NCBI GenBank assembly: GCA_001724025.1
Contig: MEDJ01000019.1
Coordinates: forward strand, 220,359-284,358
Direction of reading: 5' to 3'
DNA from: Acidobacteria bacterium SCN 69-37
GTDB taxonomy: Bacteria; Acidobacteriota; Vicinamibacteria; Vicinamibacterales; SCN-69-37
DNA: 64,000 nucleotides
Shown here: piece by piece, positions 5,718 through 60,616 of the stretch
How the letters are laid out: every line of letters begins with the position of its first letter
How positions within the stretch are numbered: the first letter of the stretch is position 1
Notes under the pieces: model-generated
Told to the model about the DNA's origin: nothing
The model's database searches: none
Seen by the model: only the letters and a program-made list of their open reading frames with translations
Translations under genes and position numbers: made by a program

Positions 5718-7117
5718 CGTCCACCTCCCGTCGTGAGGGCCTGGAGGATCCGATCGCCGACAGCCGCAATCGATCCGGCGCCCAGGGTGATCACGAGATC
5801 GCCCGGCTGCGCCTGCCTCGCCACGGCATCCGGCACATCGTCGATCGACGGCACGACCTCGAGCGCGCCGACGTGCGGCCGGATGGCCGCCGCCAGCACG
5901 TCGAGCGTGATGCCGTCGACGGACGGCTCGCCCGCGGCGTAGATGTCGGTGAGTACCACGCGATCGGCAGCCGCCAGCGCCGGGCCGAATCGATCGAGAC
6001 AGTCGCGCGTCCGGCTGAAGCGGTGCGGCTGGAACACCGCGATCAGCCGCGACGGCGCGCCGTCACGCGCGGCCCGCAGGACGGCCGCGATCTCGGTGGG
6101 GTGATGGCCGTAGTCGTCGACCACCGTGACGCCCGCGGCTTCGCCGCGCCGCTGATATCGCCGCTCGGCACCGCGGAAGCCGGCCAGCGCGGCAAACATC
6201 CGATCGGCCGGCACGCCGATCTCGAGGCCCACGGCCACGGCCGCCAGCGCGTTCTGGAGGTTGTGCCGCCCCGGTACCTGGAGCGCGAGATCCGCTTCGC
6301 CGCTGCCGGCGGGGATCCCGTGAACCTGATACTGCACCCGGCACCGGGACGACAGGCCGTCACCTGCCGGATCGAGGCCGCGCACGGCCGCGTCGGGGTG
6401 AAAACCGTAGGTGATCACGCGCCGCCTGAGACGTGGCAGCAGATCGCGCACCGCGGGATCGTCGAGACACGCGATGACCGCCCCGTAGAACGGCACCCGG
6501 TCGGCGAAGTCCCCGAACGCCTCCACGAGCCGATCGAACGAGCCGTAGGCGTCCATGTGCTCGTGATCGATGTTCGTCACGACGGCGATCGTCGGCGAGA
6601 GCTTCAGGAACGACCGATCGCTCTCGTCGGCCTCGGCCACCATGTACCGGCCGCGCCCGAGCCGCGCGTTGCTGCCGAACGCGCTCAGGCGCCCGCCGAT
6701 GACCGCTGTCGGATCGAGCCCGGCCTGCTCGAGCAGCAGCGCCACCATCGAGGTGGTGGTGGTCTTGCCGTGCGCGCCCGCAATCGCGATTCCCACGCGC
6801 AGGCGCATCAGTTCGGCGAGCATCTCGGCACGCGGAATCACGGGGATGTGCCGCTCGCGCGCCGCGACGACCTCCGGGTTGTCGGCCGCGACGGCCGAGG
6901 ACACGACGACGACGTCGGCCTGGTCGACGTGCCGGGCATCGTGGCCGACCTCGACGCGCACGCCGAGCGTCTCGAGCCGCGTCGTGAGATCCGACCGACG
7001 CGCGTCGGATCCGCTCACGCGGTACCCGACGTTCACCAGCAGTTCGGCGATGCCGCTCATGCCGATGCCGCCGATGCCGACGAAGTGCACGTGCTGCGTG
7101 CGCCCGAGCCACATCAT
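5714..7117 (-). CDS. murC: UDP-N-acetylmuramate--L-alanine ligase
   Basis: MurC adds L-alanine to UDP-MurNAc, the first amino acid of the peptidoglycan stem, in the cytoplasm with ATP. The 467-residue protein has the N-terminal GIGGIGMSG UDP-binding loop (14-22), the ATP P-loop GAHGKTTTT (114-122), the NIDHEHMDAY segment and the C-terminal DDYGHHPTE motif. Two adjacent ATG codons occur (7117, 7114). The first forms an ATGA overlap with the murG stop codon and is preferred. Confidence 0.96.
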   Translation of the reverse strand: MMWLGRTQHVHFVGIGGIGMSGIAELLVNVGYRVSGSDARRSDLTTRLETLGVRVEVGHDARHVDQADVVVVSSAVAADNPEVVAARERHIPVIPRAEMLAELMRLRVGIAIAGAHGKTTTTSMVALLLEQAGLDPTAVIGGRLSAFGSNARLGRGRYMVAEADESDRSFLKLSPTIAVVTNIDHEHMDAYGSFDRLVEAFGDFADRVPFYGAVIACLDDPAVRDLLPRLRRRVITYGFHPDAAVRGLDPAGDGLSSRCRVQYQVHGIPAGSGEADLALQVPGRHNLQNALAAVAVGLEIGVPADRMFAALAGFRGAERRYQRRGEAAGVTVVDDYGHHPTEIAAVLRAARDGAPSRLIAVFQPHRFSRTRDCLDRFGPALAAADRVVLTDIYAAGEPSVDGITLDVLAAAIRPHVGALEVVPSIDDVPDAVARQAQPGDLVITLGAGSIAAVGDRILQALTTGGGR

Positions 7118-9599: not shown

Positions 9600-9727
9600 G
9601 ATTGAGCGGTCAACAGTCATCAGTCGGACTGGATGAGGACACCGACCTCACAGACCAGAAGGGTCTGTGTTCCCAGCGGCCGACTCCCCATCGCCTGCCC
9701 GAACTGATGACTGTTCACCGTTCAATC
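9600..9727. repeat. imperfect long inverted repeat between murD and ftsW
   Basis: The arms 9600-9624 and 9703-9727 match at 23 of 25 positions when one is reverse-complemented (core AACAGTCATCAGT). Each arm reads as 7-nt-phased units such as TGAACGG and TGAACAG. The enclosed sequence contains a second perfect 6-bp stem with a 5-nt loop (9651-9667). Confidence 0.75.
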
Positions 9728-12330: not shown

Positions 12331-13727
12331 CAGGCCACCGCCAGCAGGCGATCAGCCACGCGGTCGGTCCGCGTGCCGCGCGATCCTTTCACCAGGACGA
12401 CGTCTCCGCTGACGACGAGGCGACCGATCGCCTCGGCCGCGTCGTCGCTGTCGGTGAAACGATGGATGGCCCCAGCCGGCAGTCCGCCCGCCATCGCGCC
12501 GCGGACCAGCGCGTCGACCGGCGCGCCACCCACGGCAATCAGCAGCGACACACCAGCCGCGGCCGCCGCCCTGCCGCACGCCTCGTGCAGCGCGTCGGAC
12601 AGGGATCCAAGTTCGAGCATCTCGCCGATGACGGCCACGCGCCGCCCCGTGGCCGGCGTGGCCGCGAGCGTCGCGAGCGCCGCATCGACCGCCGCGGGAC
12701 TGGCGTTGTAGGAGTCGTCGATCACCCGGACACCCGTGGCCAGTGCGTGCGACGATCCGCGCCGCGCCACGGGCCGCAGCGCCGCCACACCGGGAACGAC
12801 ACGCGCCAGCGACACGCCGCAGGCGCCGACTGCGGCGATGGCCGCGAGCACGTTCGACAGGTTCGCGCGACCAGGCAACGGCACGTGGACATCCGCCGTC
12901 TCGTCACCGGACGCGATGTGCGCGTCGACGCCATCGAATCCCCTGTCGACGACGGTCGTCGCGCGGACGTCCGCGGCCGGCGCCTCGCCGAACGTCAGGG
13001 CCCGCACGCCGTGCGCGCGCACACGCGTCATCACCAGCGGATCGTCGGCATTCGCCACGACGACCGTCGACGGGCCGGCATGCTCGAGGATCTCCGCCTT
13101 GGCGTCGGCCACGGCCTCGCGGCTGCCGAAATGCCCCACGTGCGCGTCGCCGACGTTCGTCCACACGCGGACGTCGGGATCGGCGATCGCGACGAGTGTC
13201 CGGATCTCGCCCGCGTGGTTCATGCCAAGTTCGACGACCGACACGTCGAATCCAGCCGCCAGTTCGATCAGCGAGAGCGGCAGGCCGATGTGATTGTTGA
13301 GATTGCCCCGTGTGCGGTGCACCCGCAGGCCGGCGGATCCCAACAGATCCGCCGTCACTTCCTTCGTCGTCGTCTTGCCGGCACTGCCGGTGATGGCCAC
13401 CACGCGCGCGCCCGACGCGCGGCGCACGGCACCGGCCAGCGCCTGCAGGGCCACGAGCGTGTCGTCGACGACGATCACGAGTGTCGCGTCCATCGCGTCG
13501 GGGGCCGTGTCGACCAGCAGGCCCGCTGCGCCGGCGCGGACTGCGTCGGCCAGGAACGCGTGGGCATCGAATCGATCGCCGCGCAGCGCCACGAACAACG
13601 TGCCAGGCCCGAGGGTGCGCGTGTCGATGGACACGCCGGCGAACACGTGCGTCCGATCGCCGCGTACGAGGCGCCCCCCGGTTGCCTCGGCAACCATCCC
13701 GGCGGTCAGCACCACAGCCCTGGCCAT
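12330..13727 (-). CDS. murF: UDP-MurNAc-tripeptide--D-Ala-D-Ala ligase
   Basis: MurF completes the cytoplasmic pentapeptide by adding D-Ala-D-Ala. The 465-residue sequence has the N-terminal MurE/F domain with SIDTRTL (33-39), the ATP P-loop [10 protein letters not shown] (114-123), the [10 protein letters not shown] segment, [10 protein letters not shown] and a C-terminal domain with DDSYNASP. The ATG at 13727 lies four bases after the murE stop. Upstream in-frame codons overlap murE and look non-homologous. Confidence 0.95.
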
Positions 13728-48452: not shown

Positions 48453-50255
48453 GTGAACGCCCGATCCTCTGCTGTCGCCGTCCTCCTCATCCTGGCCGTT
48501 GCGGCCCTCGTCCGCGGCGCGTGGCTGACCGCCGATCCGCCGGTCCGGCGCGCGGTCGGCATCGTGTGGCACGACGAGGGCGCGTGGGTCCACAACGCGC
48601 GCAACCAGGCGCTCTGGGGCACCTGGCGGACGGACGCGTGGAACCCGGTCTTCGTCGCCCCGGTGTTCACCGCACTCGAATACGCGTCGTTCGAAGCGTT
48701 CGGCGTGGGCACGTGGCAGGCGCGCGTGGTGCCGGCGGTCTCGGGATTCGTCGCGGTGATCGCCCTGATGATCGGGCTGCACGTGCTCGCCGGCCAGCGC
48801 GCCGCGCTCGTCGGCGGCCTGCTGCTGGCCACCAACTACGGCTTCGTGATGTGGAACCGCGCCGCGCTCATGGAATCGACGATGGCCGCGGGTCTGGCCA
48901 TCGCATGGATGGCGTGGACGCTCGCCGAACGCCGGGCGGCCTGGGCGCTCGTCGCCGGCCTCGCCGCTGTTGCCGCGTTCTTCACCAAGGCTGCCGCGGC
49001 CTTCTTCGTCGCGGCGCTTGCGATCGACATCGCGATCGTCCTGTGGACCTGGTGGCGGCGCGACGCACGTGGCGTCCCCCTCCCCGAGGCTGAAGCCCCG
49101 GGGCTCCGGCCACCGCAAATGGAGCCCCGGGGCTTCAGCCCCGGGGAGACCCGCGACCTGCCGCGTGCGGCCCTTTGGGCCATGGCCGGCCTGATCGTCG
49201 GCGCGGCGATCGTCGCCGCCGGCTTCGTCCTGCCGCACTGGACGGACTACCAGTTCTACAACTGGCAGATGAGCGTCACGCGCAAGCCGTCCTACGCGCC
49301 GGGCGCCTTCCTCGATCGCGCCACCTGGCTGCCGCTCGTGCAGGGCCTGTTCAGCCGCATGCCCGTCGAATTGATCGGCGGCCTGGCCGGCCTGATCGTC
49401 CTCGTGGCCGGCTGGCGCACGGCGCGCCCGGGCGAACGGCTGCTCGTGACGTGGGTGCTCATCGGCCTGGCCGAACTCGTCGTCCACGACTCGGGGAACG
49501 AGCGACGCTACGTGATGTTCATCCCCGCGATCATCGCGCTGGCCTCGCTGCTGTTCACGCGATCGGGCGGCCTGATCGCGGCGGCGCGCCATCGATCGCG
49601 GCTGACCTCGCTGGCCGTGCTCGCCCTGCTCGTCCCTGTCGCCTACGTGGCGATCGGGAGCCTGCTGCGGCCGCTGCTACTCGATCAGATCGAGGGCGGC
49701 GTGTTCCGCACCGCCGTCCGGCTCTCGGCCGCCGGGGCCCTGCTGCTGACGACCCTGGCCGCCTGGCGCGGCTCGCGCCTGCTCGATCGCGCCAGCCGTC
49801 GTCCCATTCCGGTGGGAATCGTCTCGGTGGCGGTGGCGGGAGCGGTGGCCTGGAACGTCGTGCAGTGGACCGACTGGGCACGGACGCGCAGCACGCTGAA
49901 CCACGACGCATCGGTGGCCCTCGGCCGGCTGCTGCCCGCCGGCACACTCGTCCAGGGCAAGCTCGCCAACGGCCTGGCGCTCGAGAACCGCATCCGGCCG
50001 ATCTTCGTGGGCAACGCGTTCGGCAACTGGGCCGACAGGCTCCACCGCGACGATGCGCGCTATATACTGACCTACGATTTGCCCCGTCTCGGCTACGAGA
50101 GTTCCGATGGATCGGGGCTGATCGAGGGCATCCTCGACCGATATCCCGGGTGGCGCGTGGTGGCCACCTTTCCTGTTGACGAGACGCGCCTGGAAGACCG
50201 CGCGGCGCTCGTCGACAAGTTCCCCGACAGCAGTCCGGCGCATGCGCGAGATTAG
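48453..50255 (+). CDS. GT-C/PMT-like membrane glycosyltransferase carrying an in-frame palindromic repeat
   Basis: The 600-residue protein has about 10-12 membrane helices and the first-loop pattern IVWHDEGAWVHNARNQ of GT39/GT83-type transferases, with an acidic pair expected to be catalytic. It probably uses a lipid-linked sugar from the divergent DPM1-like enzyme. Residues about 210-232 (EAEAPGLRPPQMEPRGFSPG) are encoded by two GC-rich hairpins that also occur as intergenic repeats. The insertion keeps the frame and lies in a loop between helices. Start is GTG; the 3' end overlaps the methyltransferase gene by 14 bases. Confidence 0.75.
   Translation: MNARSSAVAVLLILAVAALVRGAWLTADPPVRRAVGIVWHDEGAWVHNARNQALWGTWRTDAWNPVFVAPVFTALEYASFEAFGVGTWQARVVPAVSGFVAVIALMIGLHVLAGQRAALVGGLLLATNYGFVMWNRAALMESTMAAGLAIAWMAWTLAERRAAWALVAGLAAVAAFFTKAAAAFFVAALAIDIAIVLWTWWRRDARGVPLPEAEAPGLRPPQMEPRGFSPGETRDLPRAALWAMAGLIVGAAIVAAGFVLPHWTDYQFYNWQMSVTRKPSYAPGAFLDRATWLPLVQGLFSRMPVELIGGLAGLIVLVAGWRTARPGERLLVTWVLIGLAELVVHDSGNERRYVMFIPAIIALASLLFTRSGGLIAAARHRSRLTSLAVLALLVPVAYVAIGSLLRPLLLDQIEGGVFRTAVRLSAAGALLLTTLAAWRGSRLLDRASRRPIPVGIVSVAVAGAVAWNVVQWTDWARTRSTLNHDASVALGRLLPAGTLVQGKLANGLALENRIRPIFVGNAFGNWADRLHRDDARYILTYDLPRLGYESSDGSGLIEGILDRYPGWRVVATFPVDETRLEDRAALVDKFPDSSPAHARD
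49082..49146. repeat. palindromic repeat inside a gene, copy B
   Basis: A stem with a GGCTGAAGCC core, a CTCC/GGAG pair around an 11-nt spacer containing CCACCGCAAAT, and a second stem with a GGGGCTTCAGCCCC core follow one another. The order is the outward-facing form of the intergenic elements, as at 60515-60616. It is translated within the membrane protein. Confidence 0.85.
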
Positions 50256-55345: not shown

Positions 55346-56914
55346 ATGAGCGGCGGCCGACTCGCGCGGTCAGCCGGCCTGGTCGGCGTGGCGACGCTGA
55401 CCAGTCGCCTGCTCGGCCTCATCCGGGACGTCGTCCAGAGCGCCTATTTCGGCACGGGGACCGCGGCTGATGCGTTTGGCGTGGCCACGCGCCTGCCGAC
55501 GCTCCTGCGCGACCTCTTTGCCGAGGGCGCGATGAGTGCCGCGTTCGTCCCGACGTTCACGCGCCACCTCGAACGCCAGGGGCGCGACTCGGCCTTCCGC
55601 CTCGCCGCGCAGGTCATCAACGGCCTGCTGGTGATCACGGGCGTGCTGGTCGTACTCGGCATCCTCCTGGCCGGGCCGCTGGTCGCCTACTACGCCCCGG
55701 GATTCGAGGACGCCAAGCGCGATCTCACGGTCCTGCTGACGCAGATCAACATGCCGTTCCTCACGCTCATCGCGCTGGCCGCGGCGTTGATGGGCATGTT
55801 GAACGGCCTGCGCCGGTTCTTCGTGCCGGCCATGTCGCCGGCCCTGCTCAACGTCTGCTTCATCGCCTGCACGGCCATCCTCACGCCGCTCTTCACGACG
55901 ATGGGGATCGAGCCGGCCCTGGCGCTGTCGATCGGCATGCTGACGGGCGGTGTCGCGCAGATCCTGGTGCAGGTACCGACGCTCTGGCGGCTCGGCTACC
56001 GGCACCAGTGGGTGCTCGACGCGAAGGATCCGGGCGTGCGCGAGGTGCTGCTGCTCATGGGCCCGGGCACGATTGGCGTGGCGGCCGCGCAGGTGAACCT
56101 GTTCGTCAACACGGTCCTGGCCACCGGGCACGACGGGGCGGTGTCGGCGCTCCAGTACGCGTTCCGGATGATCTACATGCCGATCGGCATCATCGGCGTC
56201 TCGATTGCGACGGCGGCGGTGCCGCAGATCGCGCGCCGCGCGGCCGACCTCGACTACGACGGCATGCGCACGACGCTCTCGTGGGGCATCCGGCTGATGC
56301 TCATGCTGAGTGTGCCCGCCACTGTCGGACTGATGGTGCTGTCGACCCCGATCATCGAGCTCATCTTCGAACGGGGCCAGTTCACGCTCGACTCGACGCG
56401 CCTGGTTGCCGAAGCCCTCCTGTTCTACGCGCCCGGCATCGTCGGCTACTCGGTGGTGAAGATCGCGTCGCCGTGCTTCTACGCGCTGCAGGATGCGCGG
56501 ACGCCGATCCGCATCAGCCTGATCACGATTACCGCGAACCTGGTGCTCAACCTCGTGCTCGATGCGTGGATGGGCTTCACGGGCCTGGCGCTCGGCACCG
56601 CGATTGCCGCGAACCTGAATGCCGGCCTGCTGCTCGTGGCGCTGTCGCGCCGAATCGGCGGTGTCGACGGGCGGCGGCTGGGTCTGTCGCTGGCGAAGAT
56701 CGGCCTCGCATCGCTGCTGATGGGCCTGGCCGCGTGGAGCGGCGAACGCTGGCTGCGCGATCTCCTGCCGGGCGACGGCCTCGTCGTGCGCGGCGTGCGG
56801 GTGTTCACGGCGATTGGCGGCAGCGTCGGGGTGCTCGCCGCGGCGGCGTGGATCCTGCGCCTCGAGGAATTCAACCAGGCCCTCGGCCGGATCCGCGCGA
56901 AGATCGGTCGTTAG
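55346..56914 (+). CDS. murJ: lipid II flippase MurJ
   Basis: The 522-residue MOP-superfamily protein moves lipid II across the inner membrane for peptidoglycan synthesis. It has about 14 membrane helices and MurJ signatures: LTSRLLGLIRDVV and the GTGTAADAFGVATRLP region at the N-terminus, ALQYAFRMIYMPIGI in the middle and FYALQDARTPI later. It completes the lipid II pathway encoded by the dcw cluster. No Shine-Dalgarno sequence precedes the ATG at 55346. Its stop codon TAG runs into the terminal repeat of a 156-bp element. Confidence 0.93.
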   Translation: MSGGRLARSAGLVGVATLTSRLLGLIRDVVQSAYFGTGTAADAFGVATRLPTLLRDLFAEGAMSAAFVPTFTRHLERQGRDSAFRLAAQVINGLLVITGVLVVLGILLAGPLVAYYAPGFEDAKRDLTVLLTQINMPFLTLIALAAALMGMLNGLRRFFVPAMSPALLNVCFIACTAILTPLFTTMGIEPALALSIGMLTGGVAQILVQVPTLWRLGYRHQWVLDAKDPGVREVLLLMGPGTIGVAAAQVNLFVNTVLATGHDGAVSALQYAFRMIYMPIGIIGVSIATAAVPQIARRAADLDYDGMRTTLSWGIRLMLMLSVPATVGLMVLSTPIIELIFERGQFTLDSTRLVAEALLFYAPGIVGYSVVKIASPCFYALQDARTPIRISLITITANLVLNLVLDAWMGFTGLALGTAIAANLNAGLLLVALSRRIGGVDGRRLGLSLAKIGLASLLMGLAAWSGERWLRDLLPGDGLVVRGVRVFTAIGGSVGVLAAAAWILRLEEFNQALGRIRAKIGR

Positions 56915-57069
56915 GGCCCGTCAGGAAATCCCTCACGCCTTTGGGGCGTCGAGACGCCCGGCTGGCCAGGCGCGACGACCGAGAATACCCGGCGTATTTG
57001 AGGGAGGAGCAACGCCGCCAGGCGGGATGGATCGGCGGCCCAACGCGTCAGGGATTTCCTGGCGGGCCC
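56914..57069. repeat. 156-bp element with 25-bp terminal inverted repeats (MITE-like)
   Basis: The ends 56914-56938 and 57045-57069 match at 23 of 25 positions as inverted repeats (GGGCCCG, then CAGGAAATCCCT and ACGC). Inside is a perfect GGGCGTC/GACGCCC stem (56944-56959). There is no coding capacity, so it looks like a non-autonomous mobile element or a large structured repeat. Its left end contributes the last base of the murJ stop codon. Confidence 0.75.
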
Positions 57070-57088
57070 TTGGTCCCGGCGTCCTTGC

Positions 57089-57100: not shown

Positions 57101-57850
57101 GTGCGCCCGTTCCCCTCCACGTCCGGTGTCTCGTTCGGTCCCGGGCCCATCACCCCGGCCGTCAAGCTGATCATCATCGCGAACCTCGTGCTGTTCGTGC
57201 TGACGCTCGTCGCGCCGGGCACCGTGATCGGCCTGCTCGGCCTGAACCCGTCGCTGCTGGTCGAGCACGCGCAGGTCTGGCGGCTGGTGACGTACCTGTT
57301 CGTGCACTCGGCCGCGTCGCTGGGCCACATCCTGTTCAACATGCTCGCGGTCTGGATGTTCGGTGTCGAGCTCGAACGCCGCTGGGGCACGCCCTTCTTC
57401 CTGAAGTACTACTTCGTCTGCGGTGTGGGCGCCGGTGTCTGCACGGTGCTCGCGTCACTGCTGCCCTTCCAGATCACGGCGCCGCTCTACACCACGACGA
57501 CGATCGGCGCATCGGGGGCGGTCTACGGCCTGCTGATGGCCTGGGCGCTGATCTTCCCGCACCGCGAAATTCTGTTCATGTTCATCTTCCCGCTGAAGGC
57601 GCGGGTGTTCGTGCTGATCGTCGGCGCCATCGCGTTCCTGTCGGCGCTGACGGCCAGCGGCGGACCTGTGGCGAGCCTCGCGCACCTGGGCGGTCTGCTC
57701 GCGGGCTGGCTCTACCTCCAGGGCCCGCGCGGCTTCGTGCTCGAACTGCGCCGCCAGGTCGCCCGTCGCCGCATGGAACGGCTGCGCCGCCGCTTCAACG
57801 TCCACAAGGGCGGCAAGGACTATTGGGGAGGAGATGGGCGGGTGCACTGA
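57101..57850 (+). CDS. rhomboid-family intramembrane serine protease
   Basis: The 249-residue protein has six predicted helices and the rhomboid catalytic layout: HILFN (76-80, His and Asn of the oxyanion region), GASG with nucleophile Ser138 and AHLGGLLAG with His195 as the dyad partner. It would cleave membrane proteins within the bilayer; the substrate is unknown. The C-terminus (about 210-249) is a basic cytoplasmic tail. It starts at a GTG that follows an extended -10 by 6 nt. Confidence 0.9.
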   Translation: MRPFPSTSGVSFGPGPITPAVKLIIIANLVLFVLTLVAPGTVIGLLGLNPSLLVEHAQVWRLVTYLFVHSAASLGHILFNMLAVWMFGVELERRWGTPFFLKYYFVCGVGAGVCTVLASLLPFQITAPLYTTTTIGASGAVYGLLMAWALIFPHREILFMFIFPLKARVFVLIVGAIAFLSALTASGGPVASLAHLGGLLAGWLYLQGPRGFVLELRRQVARRRMERLRRRFNVHKGGKDYWGGDGRVH

Positions 57851-57854
57851 CGTG

Positions 57855-57971
57855 GAAGTCAGAAGTGAGAAGTTCGAAGTAAGAAGTGCGGAAAACTCTG
57901 AATTTCGAAGTTCGAACTTCGAAGTTCAAACTTGCCCGCCTTCTTACTTCGAACTTCTCACTTCTGACTTC
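57855..57971. repeat. 117-bp element with perfect 32-bp inverted arms and an inner 20-bp palindrome
   Basis: The arms 57855-57886 and 57940-57971 are perfect 32-bp inverted repeats. The left arm reads as 7-nt units GAAGTCA, GAAGTGA, GAAGTTC, GAAGTAA, GAAG(TGC). In the loop, 57904-57923 is itself a perfect 20-bp palindrome (TTCGAAGTTC and its complement). The element is AT-richer than its surroundings and lies between convergent rhomboid and cupin genes. The cupin reading frame ends inside the right arm. Confidence 0.9.
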
Positions 57972-58285
57972 ATCACGGTCGTCATGTTCAGCACGAACGC
58001 ATCGTCGAGCACTTCGGCCTGGTGCGGGGTGCCGGCCGGGACGACGAGGAGGTCACCTTCGCGGAGCGTGGCGTCATCGGTGGGCGTGACGACGCGGATG
58101 ACACCTTGGAGGACGTAGAGCAGAATTTCGCCATCGTGTGCATGGACGGGCACCTTCGTGCCCTTCTTGAAATACGCCTGGGTGAGCTGCAGGTCCTCGC
58201 CTCCCAGCGTTTTCCTGGCGACCATGTCGGTCACCTTGTCGAGCGGGACGTCGTCCCAGCGATGGCGGACAATCCGTGGGGTCAT
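57944..58285 (-). CDS. small cupin-domain protein
   Basis: The 113-residue protein is a single cupin barrel with motif 1 VPVHAHDGEILLYVLQG (His, His, Glu metal ligands) and motif 2 EGDLLVVPAGTPHQAEV (His). Such proteins bind a metal or small ligand; no reaction can be named. The last eight or so residues (KSEVRSSK) are encoded by the palindromic repeat, so the stop codon comes from that element. The start is the ATG at 58285. It is divergent from the E1 gene over a shared TATAAT region. Confidence 0.85.
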   Translation of the reverse strand: MTPRIVRHRWDDVPLDKVTDMVARKTLGGEDLQLTQAYFKKGTKVPVHAHDGEILLYVLQGVIRVVTPTDDATLREGDLLVVPAGTPHQAEVLDDAFVLNMTTVMKSEVRSSK

Positions 58286-58300
58286 TGTGAAGTGTCGAGG

Positions 58301-58308
58301 AGTATAAT
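58301..58308. promoter_or_regulatory. overlapping divergent -10 elements (cupin / E1 gene)
   Basis: TATAAT at 58303-58308 reads toward the E1 gene; TATACT at 58306-58301 on the minus strand reads toward the cupin gene. The hexamers share four base pairs. The cupin transcript would have a leader of only about 8 nt. Confidence 0.6.
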
Positions 58309-58355
58309 CTGGCGGTTGCAGGGGCGTCAGAGAGGACCGGAGGGGTTGTTGCCGG

Positions 58356-60509
58356 ATGAAGACCAGTACGCTGTCACGACGAGCCGCCACCCCGGGATCT
58401 CCGGCCGCCGATCTGGCCACCATCGCTCCTGACGTCCTGACGCGCGACGATCTGGTCCGGATCTATCGTCTGATGCTGCTGTCGCGGCGCATCGACGACA
58501 AAGAGATCCAGCTCAAGAACCAGAGTCAGCTGTTCTTCCAGATCAGCGGCGCGGGCCACGAGGCGATCCTCGTGGCCGCGGGCCTGGTGCTGCGCGCGGG
58601 CCACGACTGGTTCTATCCCTACTATCGCGATCGCGCCCTGTGCCTGACGCTGGGCATGACGCCGCGCGAGATGTTCCTCGCCGGTGTCGGTTCGTCGGAC
58701 GATCCGACGAGCGGCGGCCGGCAGATGCCGTCGCACTGGGGCGATCCGGCACGACACATCGTGTCGCAGTCGAGCGCCACGGGGACGCAGTGCCTGCACG
58801 CGGTCGGCTGTGCCGAAGCCGGCCTGCTCTACGAGCGGCTGACGGACATCCCGGATCGACACGCGCGGTTCCGCGCCGACGAGGTCGTCTACGTGTCGGT
58901 CGGCGACGGTGCGACGAGCGAGGGCGAGTTCTGGGAATCGCTCAACGTCTCGTGCCTGCGCCGCCTGCCGGTGCTCTTCGTCGTCGAGGACAACGGCTTC
59001 GCGATCTCGACGCCCGTCGAGGTCCAGACCTCCGGCGGCAGCATCTCGCGGCTGGTCGAGTCGTTCCCGGATCTGAAGATCATCCGCTGCGATGGCACCG
59101 ATGTGATTGCCAGCCATCGAGCCATGTCGGACGCCGCGGCCTGGTGCCGCGCGCGCCGCGGTCCGGCGCTGGTCCACGCCTCGGTCACCCGGCCGTACTC
59201 GCACTCCCACTCGGACGACGAACGGGCCTACAAGTCGGCGCGGGAGCGCGAGGAGGAAGCCGCACGCGATCCGCTGACGAAGCTGGCACGTCTCCTGCTC
59301 GATCGCGGCATCCTGTCGAACGAGCTCGCCGAAATCGCGCACAGCGTGGACCACGAGATCGCCGAGGCCGCCGAGTCTGCGATGAAGGCACCGAAGCCTT
59401 CGCCCTCGACCGTCGGGCAGTACGTCTACTCGCCCACGGTGGATCCGACGTCCCCCGCGTTCGAGACGCCGCTCGATCCGTCGGGGCCGCCGGACACGAT
59501 GGTGGCGGCCATCAACCGCACGCTGAAGGACGAGATGGCGGCCAACCCGCACATCGTGGTCTTCGGCGAGGACGTGGCCGACGCGACGCGCGAGACGCAC
59601 CTCGACGAGGTGCCCGGCAAGGGCGGCGTGTTCAAGGTGACGCTCGGCCTCCAGCGGCAGTTCGGATCGGATCGCGTCTTCAACTCGACGCTCGCCGAAG
59701 CCGCCATCGTCGGCCGCGCGTGCGGCATGGGGACCCGCGGCCTGAAGCCGGTGGTCGAGATCCAGTTCTTCGATTACATCTGGCCGGCGATGATGCAGCT
59801 CCGCGACGAGATTTCCATGCTGCGGTACCGGTCGAACAACGCGTTCGCGTGCCCGATGGTCGTGCGCGTGGCGATTGGCGGGTACCTGCGCGGCGGCTCG
59901 ATCTATCACAGCCAGTCGGGCGAGAGCATCTTCGCGCACTGCCCCGGGCTGCGCGTCGTCTATCCCTCGACGGCGCAGGACGCGGCCGGCCTGCTCCGCA
60001 CGGCCATCCGCAGCGACGACCCGGTCCTGTTCCTCGAGCACAAGCACCTGTACCGGCAGACCTACAACAAGGGCCCGTATCCCGGTGCGGACTACATGGT
60101 GCCGTTCGGGTCGTCGGCCGTACGGCGCGAGGGCACCGACGTCGTGGTGATCACGTGGGGCGCGCTCGTGCAGCGCTCGCTCGTGGCTGCCCAGCAGGCC
60201 GAGAAGGCCGGCGTGAGCGTGATGGTCGTGGACCTGCGCACGATTGCGCCGTTCGACTGGGCCGGCATCGCGGCCGCGGTCAGACGCACGAACCGCGTGG
60301 TGATCGCGCACGAAGATCAGCTGACGTGCGGCTTCGGCGCGGAGATTGCCGCGCGCGTCGCGAGCGATCTCTTCGAGCACCTCGACGCACCGGTCCGGCG
60401 CGTGGCCGCGCTCGATACGCCCGTCGCCTACTATCCCGATCTCGAGGACGCGATCCTGCCCGGCTCGGCCGACGTCCTGAACGCCATCCTGGACACCGCG
60501 CGGTACTAG
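58356..60509 (+). CDS. fused E1 alpha/beta 2-oxoacid dehydrogenase (branched-chain type)
   Basis: The 717-residue protein joins the alpha and beta subunits of a thiamine-diphosphate-dependent 2-oxoacid dehydrogenase E1, most like branched-chain 2-oxoacid dehydrogenase. The alpha part has the ThDP motif from [10 protein letters not shown] (183-192) to Asn213 in VVEDNG, with a [12 protein letters not shown] phosphorylation-loop-like segment. The beta part starts near residue 385 (MVAAINRTL) with VVFGEDVAD and ends with the transketolase C-domain. A linker of about 30 residues joins them. No E2 or E3 gene is in the window. Confidence 0.88.
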
Positions 60510-60514
60510 AGATG

Positions 60515-60616
60515 CCCCGAGGCTGAAGCCTCGGGGCTCCGACTGACCCGCGCCAGGCGCAGCGCCGGGACGCGCTGATCTGCGCCAGTCGGAGCCCTGG
60601 GGCTTCAGCCCCGGGG
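60515..60616. repeat. palindromic repeat between convergent genes, copy D
   Basis: Stem 1 (CCCCGAGGC/GCCTCGGGG, 60515-60536), then CTCCGACTG (60537-60545) pairing with CAGTCGGAG (60586-60594) around a 40-nt spacer, then a stem with a GGGGCTTCAGCCCC core ending at 60616. It lies between the E1 gene and the convergent outer-membrane protein gene and may stop both transcripts. Confidence 0.85.

Follow-up and report, generated by a model that had tools for sequence, protein, structure and literature searches.

A dispersed family of palindromic GAAGTNN heptamer repeats in Acidobacteria bacterium SCN 69-37

A heptamer-phased palindrome between convergent genes

In the window analyzed here (the whole 64,000-nucleotide stretch of contig MEDJ01000019.1), a palindromic element is located between the convergent genes of a rhomboid-family intramembrane protease and a cupin-domain protein (Table 1). 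The original prediction had described a 32-bp GAAGTNN inverted repeat with flawless arms and a 20-bp palindrome nested in its loop; the coordinates proved to be exact, and the nested palindrome was found as well. The left arm reads GAAGT-CA GAAGT-GA GAAGT-TC GAAGT-AA GAAG, 53 nt separate the two arms, and the first mismatch occurs at pair 33. The right arm also encodes the final codons of the cupin gene (KSEVRSSK*) together with its stop codon. No other perfect inverted repeat in the 64-kb window has arms of at least 20 nt. The G+C content over 120 bp at the element is 0.46, compared with 0.64-0.75 across most of the flanks, and the predicted RNA fold has an energy of -81.4 kcal/mol versus -29.5 ± 3.5 for dinucleotide shuffles (z = -14.9). 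Besides this element, a 25-nt inverted repeat (92% complementary, 78 nt between the arms) was observed at window positions 9600-9727, and a 32-nt inverted repeat (88%, arms 94 nt apart) at 56913-57070, directly 5' of the rhomboid gene.

Table 1. Features of the palindromic element and its neighboring genes (positions in the window)
Feature	Position	Strand	Remarks
Rhomboid-family intramembrane protease gene	57101..57850	+	ORF; Pfam PF01694, E 1.3e-26; stop codon 4 bp 5' of the element
Whole heptamer-phased palindromic element	57855..57971	.	117 bp; 125 bits with a family model partly built from the same copy
Left arm, GAAGTNN heptamers	57855..57886	+	32 nt, 100% complementary to the right arm
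Loop with core GCGGAAAA ... TTGCCCGC	57888..57939	.	Imperfect wider inverted repeat, 82%
Nested 20-bp palindrome TTCGAAGTTCGAACTTCGAA	57904..57923	.	Inside the loop
Right arm, GAAGTNN heptamers on the minus strand	57940..57971	-	32 nt
Cupin-domain protein gene, convergent	57944..58423	-	Pfam PF07883; start codon uncertain, alternative 58285

Copies, composition and genomic positions of the family

A BLAST search with the window element against its own genome gave 86 strand-matches at roughly 40 places, and 84 matches were obtained with a covariance model derived from 27 copies. From these searches and the retrieved stretches of the genome, at least 41 dispersed and slightly different GAAGTNN hairpin elements were identified, with outer spans of about 72-142 bp; the working set comprises 41 copies, one of which was added from the cluster scan. 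The window palindrome thus belongs to a non-coding hairpin repeat family that is dispersed in the genome. The original prediction had proposed a genome search for GAAGNNN heptamer runs and would have been undermined either by finding no other heptamer-phased palindromes or by an assembly artefact. The former is contradicted by the number of copies, and the latter is very unlikely, because some 41 copies of distinct sequence are spread over different contigs and gene contexts, and related palindromes occur in other genomes.

In the repeat unit, GAAGT is nearly fixed and the last two positions are variable, the final one being mostly A. A central block of the CGG(G)AAA type is present in 27 of the 41 copies, while only 1.1 would be expected (strict pattern, shuffle control). 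Of 80 arms, 24 end in an outermost CAAGT, a unit that is not among the twelve commonest inner units. The common core and the CAAGT end favor spread as a discrete element, for which slippage by itself is insufficient. Among the 29 usable elements, 23 have an outer span of 5 or 6 modulo 7 (p about 2e-5), so the 7-nt lattice is kept through the whole element, including the core. Like STRR, the family consists of heptanucleotide repeats that are arranged in tandem and scattered through the genome, and the lattice bears out the earlier suggestion of STRR-like heptamer repeats arranged as a palindrome. Examination of 344 kb of the genome for degenerate tandem arrays revealed 47 arrays of period 7, two of period 8 and none of periods 5, 6, 9 or 10; the commonest period-7 units were rotations of GAAGTNN or of its complement. 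The copies are unevenly distributed, 18 of the 41 being located on one 567-kb contig, which represents 13% of the genome (5.2 expected, p = 9e-7).

We analyzed the gene contexts of the 41 copies with a simple codon-based gene caller, taking as background 344 kb of the same genome in which some element sites are included. The gene pairs that flank the copies are co-directional in 24 cases, convergent in 16 and divergent in one, compared with 248, 37 and 35 background gene pairs, respectively (p = 1e-5); convergent pairs alone are enriched at element sites (16/41 vs 37/320, p = 3.5e-5). Between co-directional genes, the elements are found at a median of 9 bp from the upstream stop codon and 22 bp from the downstream start codon. 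Five copies are present within the S10/spc/alpha ribosomal-protein cluster, where they adjoin the rpoA, S11, S13, L36, L30, S5, S8, S14, L16 and S3 genes.

Comparison with the congener (G001) revealed no element at any of the six orthologous sites compared, i.e. five ribosomal sites and the window site. At the latter, the rhomboid and cupin genes are present and convergent in the congener as well, separated by a short G+C-rich spacer. The five ribosomal sites also lack the element in the other aligned family members, many of which have spacers of 0-70 bp and some of which have other genes or arrays there; in several relatives, only 0-15 bp are present at the ribosomal-protein spacers that hold elements in SCN 69-37. 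The recent origin proposed in the original prediction is thus supported relative to the congener. Active copying, which it had also proposed, was not borne out: the best pairs of copies are about 82-89% identical, near-identical copies are absent from the set, and no target-site duplication was detected (mean flanking direct repeat 2.53 vs 2.35 ± 0.15 after shuffling, p = 0.14).

Arm matching and occurrence in other genomes

The two arms of a copy match each other better than they match the arms of other copies (summed score 1148 vs 1008 ± 24; the maximum of 20,000 permutations was 1097). In only five of the 41 copies does no foreign arm fit better than the copy's own arm, and in many copies the two arms match poorly; any arm repair would thus be incomplete. 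In the 27-copy alignment, two-sided changes were observed at 14 of 32 pairs, and the covariation score (0.135) exceeded that of 500 out of 500 shuffles (0.077 ± 0.008), which leave relatedness in, as well as that of all slid registers. Such covariation could reflect either selected RNA pairing or, at the DNA level, the use of one arm as template for the other. If RNA pairing were under selection, G-U pairs should exceed A-C mismatches on the transcribed strand. No such excess was detected in the co-directional copies (42 G-U vs 46 A-C, p = 0.75), so the strong selection suggested by the original prediction lacks support at the RNA level. A run of at least four T residues 3' of the hairpin was found in just one of 56 transcribed readings, and a search of the window copy for a terminator-like site gave none. 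In the absence of both a G-U excess and U-tracts, the symmetry probably reflects upkeep at the DNA level, by 7-nt slippage and hairpin template switching, and the elements are not classical terminators; an intrinsic terminator was ruled out on the same U-tract evidence. A known structured RNA family was also rejected, since Rfam 15 gave only miRNA hairpin matches below threshold and none above the gathering score. A stable 3' hairpin is expected in transcripts, yet a conserved RNA task is not indicated.

Among the 162 genomes of the order, 24 contained the strict GAAGTNN palindrome pattern, while a reversed control pattern had almost no matches. The order, probably Vicinamibacterales, includes Acidobacteria subdivision 6, since G072 and Acidobacteria bacterium isolate gp6 AA46 (L101) gave identical matches. 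Within the family, the SCN 69-37 genome alone matched the strict pattern; looser GAAGYNN palindromes are present in G005, which belongs to another genus. Outside the order, most matches in the scan of genome contigs were plain tandem arrays rather than palindromes, and GAAGTNN palindromes were also found in Nostoc spongiaeforme (L078) and Desulfococcaceae bacterium HSG8 (L152). In addition, Bacteroidota bacterium USDV_maxbin.037 (L123) has a long nested palindrome that contains GAAGTGA heptamers and a repeated GATGCGTAGAGTACRCCGCTTCGCC block.

At the junction of a cupin-like gene and ssb, GAAGYNN palindromes occur in SCN 69-37, G005 and G092. In G072, G043, G006, G020 and others, the ssb junction is occupied by other 7- or 8-nt units, arranged as palindromes or arrays, such as ATGGCTN (G072, L312 about 1610-1990), GATCNGG (G043, L343 from 1860) and GCAATCT (G006, L349 from 1842), and some genomes have almost no spacer there. 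Ribosomal-protein spacers likewise hold other units, namely ACCCAGNN in G002 and G006 and AACGAATT in G007. Therefore, some sites recur while the unit changes. The G007 arrays (L231, about 12615-12760) are built of the 8-nt AACGAATT unit and form two opposed stretches around a ribosomal-protein gene region, so that the design is repeated with an octamer. Among 60 sampled element loci in other genomes, three share a junction with SCN 69-37, i.e. ssb (G005 and G092) and L20-pheS (G110), in a sample not designed for testing site function. These recurring junctions may point to a site-related function. General sharing of sites was not detected when the flanking genes of the SCN 69-37 elements were sought near the elements of eight other genomes (8/82 vs 17/284, p = 0.22).

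Interpretation and comparison with known repeats

We consider the family to be a REP/STRR-like repeat, probably neutral, that persists through 7-nt slippage and template switching between the arms, and give this reading a probability of about one half. The copies would descend from a common progenitor and would have been dispersed by some copying route. At each site, 7-nt slippage would then alter the length of the arms, and foldback template switching (quasipalindrome correction) would copy the free bases of one arm onto the other. Slippage and arm copying would lead to arms that are matched inside each copy while the copies diverge among themselves. The elements would be tolerated where they are least harmful, i.e. 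3' of stop codons rather than in the promoter regions between divergent genes. Slippage and template switching are deduced here from one genome per species.

Several other explanations have to be weighed against neutral maintenance. The elements might act at transcript 3' ends, terminating or insulating convergent transcripts or shielding the upstream mRNA from 3' exonucleases, as has been proposed for REP, with RNA structure selected and sequence free. The enrichment between convergent genes, the closeness to stop codons, the very stable RNA hairpin of the window copy and the different palindromes that many relatives have at the convergent ssb junction all agree with such a role. However, selection on RNA structure should have left a G-U excess on the transcribed strand, T-runs are nearly absent and the window copy has no terminator-like site. 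Moreover, the congener does without the element at the sites compared, and five copies are situated between essential ribosomal-protein genes of the same direction, where several relatives have spacers of 0-15 bp into which a hairpin would not fit. We regard a role of this kind as rather unlikely. A MITE-like non-autonomous element, mobilized by a transposase in trans and with the arms as terminal inverted repeats, would explain the discrete element with its recurrent CAAGT end and core at about 41 places, as well as the orthologous sites that lack it in the congener. This explanation appears somewhat less probable still, as target-site duplications and near-identical copies are missing, the arms vary from copy to copy, unlike the fixed ends that transposases bind, and the sole Y1/RAYT transposase found (surveyed as Y1_Tnp) is flanked by another REP.

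It is also conceivable that the elements are arrays of putative binding sites for a chromosome-organizing or RNA-binding protein that reads GAAGT with 2-nt spacers. The five fixed and two free positions of each unit, which are seen throughout the family and across the order, and the concentration of copies on one 567-kb contig would fit such arrays, and binding of the IHF/HU type has been proposed for paired heptamer sites in Geobacter (PMC2700814). But a binding array gives the spacer bases no reason to covary between arms, unrelated 7- or 8-nt units occupy the same sites in other species, and there is no candidate protein; we regard this explanation as quite improbable.

The GAAGTNN family lacks the RAYT partner of REPs, the target-site duplications of MITEs and the U-tracts of terminators, which places it with the known but unexplained degenerate heptamer repeats. 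Many bacterial genomes contain an excess of heptamer repeats, for which no explanation has been accepted (PMC4692102). The palindromic arrangement itself is already known from the inverted pairs of Xanthomonas (PMC4692102) and the paired tandem sites of G. metallireducens (PMC2700814). In Xanthomonas, 186 and 183 sets of GGGNATC heptamer repeats have been reported, with about 70-75 inverted pairs per genome; they are intergenic, lie closer to the upstream ORF (28 nt vs 160 nt), under-use divergent spacers, and their function was left open (Rehm et al. 2015, PMC4692102). The two families share a degenerate 7-nt unit with five conserved positions, tandem organization and many-copy inverted pairs in intergenic regions near stop codons and seldom between divergent genes. 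The Xanthomonas unit differs in sequence, being G-rich and G-quadruplex forming. Furthermore, less than half of the Xanthomonas sets form inverted pairs, whereas nearly all GAAGTNN copies are palindromic and most have the common core; and Xcc and Xac have most sites in common, while the congener of SCN 69-37 lacks the element at the six sites tested. In Geobacter metallireducens, the class 3 putative global regulator sites comprise eight pairs, fifteen of the sites consisting of five tandem heptamers with the consensus MTYCTGA; the authors proposed IHF/HU binding and left the function open (Aklujkar et al. 2009, PMC2700814). TGACTTC, one form of the GAAGTNN unit, fits this consensus when rotated, a likeness at the level of the consensus only, and the eight Geobacter pairs compare with at least 41 elements in SCN 69-37.

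Cyanobacterial STRR and the TAACTGA repeats of Beggiatoaceae (PMC4679880) are also intergenic heptamer tandems with a patchy distribution across phyla, mixed units and 7-nt length changes. The Beggiatoa repeats are mostly direct and near start codons (one indirect repeat was noted), whereas the GAAGTNN elements are palindromes that follow stop codons. In the P6b region of the Nostoc trnL intron, degenerate heptamers (NNTGAGT and TDNGATT) form both strands of a stem, and the repeat class switches at the same site by lineage (PMC4476775), as in the elements described here; but those heptamers belong to a group I intron with a known structural role, and the GAAGTNN repeats are a dispersed intergenic family.

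A further possibility is that heptad-built foldback elements form a general class in many phyla that does not depend on a transposase, with the GAAGTNN palindromes as one example; we put this extension forward only tentatively and consider it doubtful. Under such a view, certain gene-end spacers would repeatedly gain palindromes of 7- or 8-nt units, the unit being replaced from species to species, and replication slippage together with hairpin template switching would build and repair them. The GAAGTNN family offers a measurable case, with arms that are matched within a copy and different between copies and with insertion after stop codons; it adds paired free positions, a G-U test, empty sites and a change of unit at fixed sites.

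REP/BIME sequences associated with RAYT (PMC2817692) resemble the GAAGTNN family in being numerous extragenic palindromes with compensated changes between arms. However, REPs are short, have GTAG-type heads and flank their own RAYT gene, while the RAYT gene of SCN 69-37 is flanked by another repeat. RAYT was accordingly rejected as a partner: the only Y1_Tnp match (C1:290286-290594) is flanked by CCCTGGGGCTTCAGCCCCAGGG repeats, and no GAAGTNN pairs were found in the surrounding 13 kb. The REP flanking this gene constitutes a second palindromic family (CCCCGAGGCTGAAGCCTCGGGG / CCCTGGGGCTTCAGCCCCAGGG), which is also present in the window at 49080-49148 and 60515-60616 and in L191 at 6000-6880.
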